The notes under the pieces were generated by a model. The model had not been told where the DNA came from and did not search any database. It saw only the letters and a program-made list of their open reading frames with translations. Below, in pieces: positions 1-1,662 of a DNA stretch of 60,092 nucleotides. The translations under genes were made by a program, and so were the position numbers. How positions within the stretch are numbered: the stretch's first letter is position 1; each line of letters begins with the position of its first letter. Source of the DNA: Oxalobacteraceae bacterium (GTDB lineage: Bacteria; Pseudomonadota; Gammaproteobacteria; Burkholderiales; Burkholderiaceae_D); assembly GCA_947464955.1 (NCBI GenBank), contig CANHZI010000002.1:1-60092 (forward strand), given 5' to 3'.

Positions 1-461
1 AAAGAGAGGGAGCGTCCCCAGGTATGCAGAGCCATGAGATAACCAGGCTCAGCGCCAGCGAGTCGCCGCTCATCGTTAAGTAATTCTTGCAGACATTGAC
101 TGGCACATTGAAACAGTAATTCCATCATGGCGGCGGTGTTGAATTGCCATAACGTGTTTAATTCATGGGGGATGGTGAAGATGATGTGATAGTGCGGGCA
201 ATGCAGTAATCGTTCGCGCTGTTGCTGCAACCAACGCGCCATCTGCAAGCCTTTACATTGTGGACAGCTACGATGCTTACAGGAGTTATACCAGACCCGT
301 TCAATATGGCCTTGAGGGCAAGCCTGCACATGACCACCTAATGCAGCAGTACGACAGCGAGAAAGTTTATTCGCAGCGCGATACCAATGCGGCGGTAAGC
401 GTTCAGTAGCAGCCAACTGCGAGAAATGGCGCTGAAAAAGACGCTGCAATGTACTGGCCAT
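1..461 (-). CDS. IS91-family (HUH, Y2) transposase, N-terminal part; 3' end beyond the window
   Basis: The minus strand has an open frame of 153 codons from ATG at 461 (AGGTG ribosome site just upstream) running off the left edge. It shows the zinc-binding domain of IS91/ISCR transposases: a first pair in CRTAALGGHVQAC and a second in SCKHRSCPQC, about residues 35-75. After that come HYHIIFTIPHELN and HTWGRSL, typical of the start of the Y2 rolling-circle catalytic domain. The family moves by rolling-circle transposition from an ori end to a ter end. The catalytic HUH and tyrosine residues lie outside the window, so intactness cannot be judged. It is transcribed divergently from the integrase at 664. 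Confidence 0.88.
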   Translation of the reverse strand, partial: MASTLQRLFQRHFSQLAATERLPPHWYRAANKLSRCRTAALGGHVQACPQGHIERVWYNSCKHRSCPQCKGLQMARWLQQQRERLLHCPHYHIIFTIPHELNTLWQFNTAAMMELLFQCASQCLQELLNDERRLAGAEPGYLMALHTWGRSLS

Positions 462-513
462 TGGTCACCTCTCTTAACGCAAAGAGCCAGTCAGCCGGCG
501 CCTTACGCGTCCT

Positions 514-540
514 CCCGCGCAGCGGGACTAGTGCAACTAG
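514..540. repeat. Two tandem mini-hairpins with identical GCA loops; candidate terIS end of the IS91-like element
   Basis: Two perfect 5-bp stems follow each other: CCCGC-GCA-GCGGG (514-526) and CTAGT-GCA-ACTAG (528-540), separated by one A. They lie about 50 bp upstream of the transposase start. IS91-like elements carry short subterminal palindromes at the end upstream of the transposase (terIS), so this could be that end. The assignment is an inference, because the other end and the target junction are not in the window. Confidence 0.4.
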
Positions 541-614
541 ATATAGAGGGTGAAATGACGGGTGAAAAAGCAACTTGTCGCATAACATTTTTCATAGACA
601 CTCCGAAAAGTCTT

Positions 615-642
615 TTGCACAATAGCTCTCCGTGGATATACT
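615..642 (+). promoter_or_regulatory. Promoter of the integron-type integrase
   Basis: A -35-like TTGCAC (615-620) and a -10-like TATACT (637-642) are separated by 16 bp. Transcription would begin near 649, about 15 nt before the ATG at 664. The -10 overlaps the LexA box starting at 641, so bound LexA would block RNA polymerase. Confidence 0.55.
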
Positions 643-656
643 GTATATTTGTACAG
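641..656 (+). promoter_or_regulatory. LexA (SOS) operator over the integrase promoter
   Basis: CTGTATATTTGTACAG matches the gamma/betaproteobacterial LexA consensus CTGT-N8-ACAG exactly. It overlaps the -10 of the integrase promoter and ends 7 bp before the ATG. SOS control of integron integrases is established for class 1 and Vibrio integrons, and the same arrangement is seen here. Confidence 0.85.
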
Positions 657-663
657 TATTAAA

Positions 664-1662
664 ATGTCTACAGAAAGCGTCATTTTGATGGAACTGCATT
701 CTACCAAGCTTCTTGATCGTGTCAAGGAAGCAATTCGCTATAAGCATTACAGTCTGCGCACTGAGAGAGTTTATGTGTATTGGTGCCGCTATTTCATTAG
801 ATTTCATCAACTACGTCATCCAAAAGACATGGGCGCGCCTGAAGTCGAAGCTTTCTTGAGTTTTTTAGCAAACGAAAAGCAAGTATCCCCTTCCACCCAT
901 CGTCAAGCTCTCTCTGCCATTTTGTTTATGTACAAAGTGGTTCTTTGTATTGACCTACCCTGGCTAAAAGAGATCGGCCAACCGACAACAACGCGACGCT
1001 TACCTGTCGTGTTGTCGGTTGACGAAGTTTGCACGATCTTCTCCCGTTTATCTGGCGAGCACCTCTTATTGGCGCAACTTTTATATGGTACCGGCATGCG
1101 TATCAATGAGGCGCTTCAACTGCGCGTAAAGGACATCGACTTCCTTCATAACACTATCATTGTAAGAGCCGGGAAAGGCAACAAAGATCGCGCTTTGATG
1201 TTACCCCTCAGCTTAATCGATCACCTAAAGGCACAGCTCATAAACTCCAAAACATTATGGGCTAAAGATCGTGCAAATAATGTAGCTGGCGTGGAAATTC
1301 CCTACGCGCTCTCGAGGAAGTACCCTGCTGCAGGGCAAACTTGGGCGTGGCATTGGGTGTTTCCGCAGGCGAGTGTCTCTGTTGATCCGCGCAGTAAAGT
1401 CGTTCGTCGGCATCATCTTTATGACCGAACGTTTCAACGGGCTTTCAAGTTAGCAAAGGAGGCTGCACAGATTCATAAACCCGCTTCACCACATACCTTG
1501 CGACATTCTTTTGCAACCCATTTACTACAATCGGGTTACGACATTCGCACAGTTCAAGAACTTTTAGGGCACGCAGACGTCAGTACAACGATGATCTACA
1601 CCCATGTTCTTAAGGTTGGTGGCGCTGGCGTGAAAAGCCCATTGGATCGCATAGCAATTTAA
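664..1662 (+). CDS. intI: Integron-type integrase (IntI, tyrosine recombinase)
   Basis: This 332-aa tyrosine recombinase resembles class 1 IntI along its whole length. Taking ATG 664 as the start, the catalytic residues fall at R146 (GTGMR), H277 and R280 (HTLRH), H303 (LGHAD) and Y312 (MIYTHV), which is IntI1 numbering. The insertion specific to integron integrases, absent from XerC/D, is present around residues 210-255 ([21 protein letters not shown]). The conserved tail [11 protein letters not shown] is also there. IntI recombines attC cassettes with attI. No attC site or canonical attI (GTTRRRY core) was found within reach; the IS91-like transposase lies where cassettes normally sit. An upstream TTG at 649 is an unlikely start because it lies inside the LexA box. 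Some IS91-type elements carry their own tyrosine recombinase, but the IntI insertion argues for an integron origin. Confidence 0.9.

Follow-up and report, generated by a model that had tools for sequence, protein, structure and literature searches.

The window analysed here, a stretch of 60,092 nucleotides that constitutes an entire contig (C2, one of 274) of an Oxalobacteraceae genome, carries a chromosomal integron whose integrase gene has a LexA-type box at its promoter. The IS91-type transposase DNA lying beside this gene is likely the first gene cassette of the integron, captured by the integron integrase (IntI), and to this reading as a whole we assign a probability of roughly 85%.

The integron integrase gene

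The open reading frame (ORF) at 649-1662 on the plus strand, with TTG 649 as its listed start, was assigned as intI by both profile and residue matches. It scores 510 bits and 464 bits against the integron-integrase profiles NF011946 and TIGR02249, respectively, and in a comparison with IntI1 (67% identity) its product retains the IntI1 catalytic residues R146, K171, H277, R280, H303 and Y312, as well as the additional domain. The IntI1 numbering asserted in the preliminary description of this DNA is exact once the ATG at 664 is taken as the start. A predicted LexA-type SOS box, CTGTATATTTGTACAG, lies at 641-656 at the intI promoter and follows the CTGT-N8-ACAG pattern, which occurs twice across the 60 kb window; the same box sequence is present in locus L010. 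The earlier identification of an SOS-type integron integrase holds. Among named proteins, its best matches (91%) belong to Undibacterium baiyunense and U. fentianense, and genomes of that genus show, by eye, the same two attI and first-cassette starts (L157, L158), so that we take the host to be Undibacterium. Downstream of the gene lie groES/groEL-like ORFs, named from sequence, of which groES is matched in sibling loci.

A transposase gene joined to attI at the recombination point

Divergent from intI, the ORF at 3-461 on the minus strand encodes the N-terminal 153 amino acids of an IS91-family transposase, including its zinc-binding domain (NF033538, 175.8 bits; PF14319). The gene is interrupted by the contig edge, and the region of the HUH and tyrosine motifs falls past that edge. 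We assign positions 1-536 (minus strand) as the 5' part of a transposase gene cassette whose remainder also lies past the contig edge, with a hairpin (CCCGC-TGC-GCGGG) at 514-526 on the minus strand, just within the cassette start. By eye, this left-end hairpin is also present in L129, L128, L175, L176 and L178 among the relatives described below, and is absent from L177 and L179.

The intI-proximal attI region spans 537-640 (minus strand) and ends in ATCTAG, and the recombination core G|TTGCAC occupies 531-537 (minus strand). The transposase DNA starts exactly at the attI crossover, which lies between positions 537 and 536 in the minus-strand reading; as first described, an IS91-type transposase occupies the place of attI and its cassettes. 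A search for GTTRRRY between 462 and 663 had earlier been reported as negative, but the junction does hold a core, GTTGCAC, which was missed because it is one base off that consensus. The GTTAAGA formerly offered as the nearest core, near position 470, actually lies at 472-478, immediately ahead of the transposase ATG, and is not the junction.

Comparison within the genus, where integrase matches at 1e-60 occur in 12 of 43 genomes, delimits this attI. Six loci share an attI ending in ATCTAG|TT, namely the window, L156, L157, L158, L159 and L161 (the intI of L161 contains stops). The first cassettes of the five siblings all start differently (TTCGAC, TTAGGC, TTAAGC, TTAGAG and TTAGGT, with TTGCAC in the window), such that one constant attI end is followed by five different first cassettes in the siblings, and the transposase cassette starts at the G|TT crossover. 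Arrays of attC sites follow the ATCTAG|TT point in L010 and L011, at the same locus as in the window, as judged by a covariance model whose training sites include two from L010 and one from L011.

The genome contains a second junction of this kind. Contig C195 carries another integrase, 64% identical to that of the window and located beside a threonine-synthase-like ORF, and its attI is of a different type that is common to L160, L167 and L169. After this type of attI, cassettes start with TTAGAG, TTATGC or TTAGCC in the three other loci (the TTAGCC locus has AAG instead of ACG ahead of the crossover), versus TTGCAC in C195, where the crossover likewise leads into the same transposase DNA. C2 and C195 are identical over 138 bp (window 400-537), up to and including the core G, and their flanks diverge from there. 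We observed separately that the second integrase (L089, 7180-7280) has no CTGT-N8-ACAG box and, by eye, only a half-matching one.

Because the transposase DNA is joined exactly at the capture point in two different integrons, it is likely a captured cassette, and the integron has not been split. The preliminary description had stated that the integron holds no cassettes, which is contradicted by transposase DNA that is itself joined at the attI recombination point, and had proposed that a rolling-circle element landed in and separated the integron, which does not fit a junction that falls exactly on the crossover.

The probable 3' end of the cassette

It counts against the cassette reading that the core departs from the GTTRRRY consensus and that the cassette's own 3' end lies outside the window. 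C2 and C195 both stop within the transposase gene, and consequently the far end of the transposase DNA is missing. The attC covariance model gave no match at E <= 10 in the window, as expected if the cassette 3' end lies past the contig edge.

Contig C57 opens with an attC (33.3 bits) situated 137 bp ahead of a junction, and its R'' sequence, GTGCAAC, is the exact complement of the window cassette start. This attC is probably the 3' end of the window cassette, as judged from sequence. The link consists solely of the matching 7-mer and a near-equal overlap length: the 137 bp in C57 and the 138 bp in C195 suggest that both contigs stop at equal depth within a repeat. The 7-mer match is not specific, since the core that follows the C57 attC is GTTGCAC as well; the first 137 bp of C57 occur once in the assembly. 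Comparison with L180, L010, L011 and five genus loci did not assign C57 to either integron.

Relatives of the transposase reside at integron sites

We identified eight relatives with readable surroundings (L128, L129, L154 and L175-L179, from six genomes and two plasmid types), each adjacent either to recombination sites of an integron or to an integron integrase, and all of which keep the HPHxH and YLxRY motifs. In a tree, the window and these relatives form one clade of nine rows with 100/100 support, separate from an IS91 group that carries a tyrosine recombinase and from the remaining IS91 rows; the window row is short in this tree (37% of columns), and the branches of L154 and L178 are long. 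Loci L099, L104, L105, L107, L108, L111, L114, L115, L118 and L119, from the search of family genomes, were excluded from the tree; L099, L111, L115 and L119 belong to one genome.

Such relatives were sparse at every taxonomic level searched. Among 392 family genomes there was no close relative, and besides the genome of the window 17 carry only distant IS91 matches, at 1e-15. Four others among 399 order genomes match at 1e-30, two of them within the clade, and the one other match among 398 phylum genomes falls outside it. With the L129 protein as query, 340 class genomes yielded four matches at 1e-60, all in the clade. Surroundings were inspected for every hit of the order, phylum and class searches. 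The 12 genomes of the family to which G419 belongs gave no further relatives, and a scan of viral contigs found no close ones. Among plasmids, the window part has matches at 1e-5 in 3,329 of 72,556 records; the plasmid relatives used here come only from the 12 records that match the L129 protein at 1e-55, which are of two types (the In1547 type and pTBH10). The relatives of highest identity, among the best 120 of 302, are metagenome protein fragments with up to 59% identity over nearly the whole query and with unreadable surroundings.

The attC covariance model was built from 20 of 25 attC sites found in other integron loci, with L071 excluded. The palindrome rule that chose these sites is not strand-specific, given that it returned 48 opposite-strand hits (repeats counted), compared with 25 distinct cassette-strand sites. 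With this model, a relative's own attC is found at the 3' end in seven of seven cases with an intact 3' end, at 19.5-35.2 bits: 23.5 in L129, 23.6 in L154 (detected only with filters off), 35.2 in L175, 19.5 in L176, 30.9 in L177, 28.3 in L178 and 26.9 in L179. The model found no 3' attC for L128, which has a short frame; the L128 transposase adjoins its own intI, 54% identical to that of the window, at an attI without a reference site for comparison.

On the other side, the attC of a preceding cassette ends at the cassette start in L129 (42.6 bits), L154 (49.7), L177 (32.1) and L179 (35.6). The upstream attC is weak in L178 (9.9 bits), and in L175 (13.6 bits) it is truncated at the contig edge. 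A different site in L178, at 2366-2452, was rejected as the attC abutting the transposase cassette because it belongs to another cassette. To the left of L176 we recognised neither attI nor intI nor attC, and its attC matches lie downstream.

Five of these seven relatives (L154, L175, L177, L178 and L179) have a cassette start that is perfectly complementary to R'', and L129 and L176 show one mismatch. In the five, the variable position of the core (GTTGNAC) pairs with its counterpart in R'' (GTNCAAC), in three versions (A-T, G-C and C-G). Such covariation of start and R'' is expected if both pair in the excised circle.

A proposed route of capture

We propose that IntI would pair the attC hairpin of the cassette with attI and thereby insert the cassette, that the same capture would have occurred at both integrons, C2 and C195, and that the attC opening C57 would be the missing 3' end. 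Damage signals of the SOS response may induce IntI. The cassette would encode a working IS91-type transposase with HUH and two-tyrosine motifs, and IntI may shuffle this cassette like others, whether or not the transposase still mobilises anything.

A sister group and alternative explanations

The ends of the tyrosine-recombinase IS91 group are conserved (GTTGAACTAAACCGC ... CTATTC). On the right, 11 copies (L090, L133, L071 and L134-L141) are flanked by GTTA, as found with a search pattern that itself required GTT; the right flank of L130 is GTTG. An ATG often lies within about 25 bp of the right flank. Members of the group lie at attI in L090 and L071, beside intI in L134 and L141, and at an attC end in L137 and L140, and L130 sits between ORFs that by eye read as ordinary genes, in surroundings where no intI and no attC were found. 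An attC carried by the group itself was considered but found no support from the model in the one copy tested (L090), whose right end reached only 4.1 bits with filters off.

Several further observations concern individual members. L090 (contig C235, 1863-4340) comprises an IS91 transposase and a tyrosine recombinase on a contig without intI, and the sequence to its left matches attI in L164 and L165. Three attI are thus recognised in the genome, the third type via L164/L165, and all of them carry IS91-type DNA. In Thauera propionica, L071 is located at the attI1 crossover of class 1. L133 (contig C199, 3855-5330) is a 5'-truncated IS91 transposase followed by cassette-like ORFs, by eye, and it stands directly after a gcvP-like gene without intI; the model found no attC at this remnant. 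The left end of the element in L136 (4309) lies within an apparent copy of an intI promoter (TACTGTATTTTTATGCA|GTT), not in attI.

The behaviour of this sister group bears on the possibility that an IS91-type element inserted itself by its HUH transposase, with a preference for GTT targets picking out integron cores and the likeness to a cassette arising as a by-product. IS91 elements prefer short targets, such as GTTC/CTTG, which fits GTT-targeted insertion, and an insertion of IS91 type just 5' of a GTT would give the identical left junction. Moreover, the sister group reaches attI and attC ends, and once (L130) DNA without integron parts. Nevertheless, we consider self-insertion unlikely. 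The window clade, unlike the sister group, has a 3' attC in every intact case, its start and R'' change jointly, and further GTTs within ~70 bp of the window attI crossover (GTTATGC and GTTGCTT) are unused. Capture by IntI is preferred for the window for the reason that its clade has attC whereas the right end of the sister group, in the copy tested, does not.

An assembly artefact, in which repeated transposase DNA was misjoined to one integron, would be in keeping with C2 and C195 both ending within a repeat. It is very improbable, given that both contigs have their junction right on the attI crossover, that the window includes 537 bases of transposase DNA, and that relatives elsewhere are joined at integron sites too, one of them (L177) in a single-contig genome. 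Least credible of all is the earlier suggestion of a single new mobile unit made up of integrase and transposase: the divergent pair is present in C2, C195 and L128, but the integrases differ (those of C195 and L128 showing the 64% and 54% identity given above), the transposase DNA of the window recurs beside the other integrase in C195, the integrases have different neighbours (groES in the window, as in L156-L158 with other first cassettes, and threonine synthase in C195), the DNA common to C2 and C195 ends exactly at the core, L129, L154, L177 and L179 sit behind the attC of other cassettes and away from intI, and seven relatives have their own 3' attC, as gene cassettes do.

Comparison with known systems

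One member of the window clade is the ISVsa10-type transposase cassette (L154) of In1547, a blaIMP-6 integron. This cassette is complete, lies between the aadA2 attC and qacEdelta1, starts with GTTGAAC and ends with R'' GTTCAAC in its 23.6-bit attC. Its transposase is 46.7% identical to the window part. The In1547 type, carried on drug-resistance replicons, accounts for 11 of 72,556 plasmid records, and 13 of 5,426 E. coli genomes carry it, with surroundings viewed for one plasmid and one chromosome. PMC11049973 describes a transposase (ISVsa10) insertion downstream of aadA2 in In1547, which by our own match of position is this cassette.

Other mobile elements also exploit integron sites, and ISCR28 and ISShvi3 are likened to the present clade by description only. 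The IS1111-attC elements and group IIC-attC introns insert into attC by means of other enzymes, whereas the window-clade unit has its own attC. Both are presented as mobile elements that target integron cassette sites in PMC9229058, which also reports ISShvi3 beside an attC in a Shewanella integron, as a new cassette structure, with one case of this kind noted. PMC12772301 reports that every ISCR28 (with sul4) has an attC at its end or immediately behind it and discusses passive shuffling within cassettes; our 12 plasmid matches to the L129 transposase at 1e-55 comprise the In1547 type and pTBH10. Single IS91/ISCR elements next to attC are already in print. Among the literature matches listed, where subscription journals are thinly covered, no title or abstract opening concerned an IS91 clade living as cassettes.

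Implications

Integron cassettes and IS91 elements both operate via folded single-stranded DNA. In this analysis a divergent transposase clade with preserved catalytic motifs turned up nowhere but at integron sites, which suggests an enduring association with integrons. It is even conceivable, though we regard this as a long shot, that this clade of IS91-type HUH transposases has become integron-bound, with attC doubling as a rolling-circle origin and the element moving itself, and perhaps neighbouring cassettes, from integron to integron independently of the integrase. One clade member already resides within a carbapenemase integron. For annotation pipelines the warning is that what they label as IS91 inserted into an integron may be a cassette. 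The clade also opens to test the question of whether cassettes can bring along their own machinery for movement.
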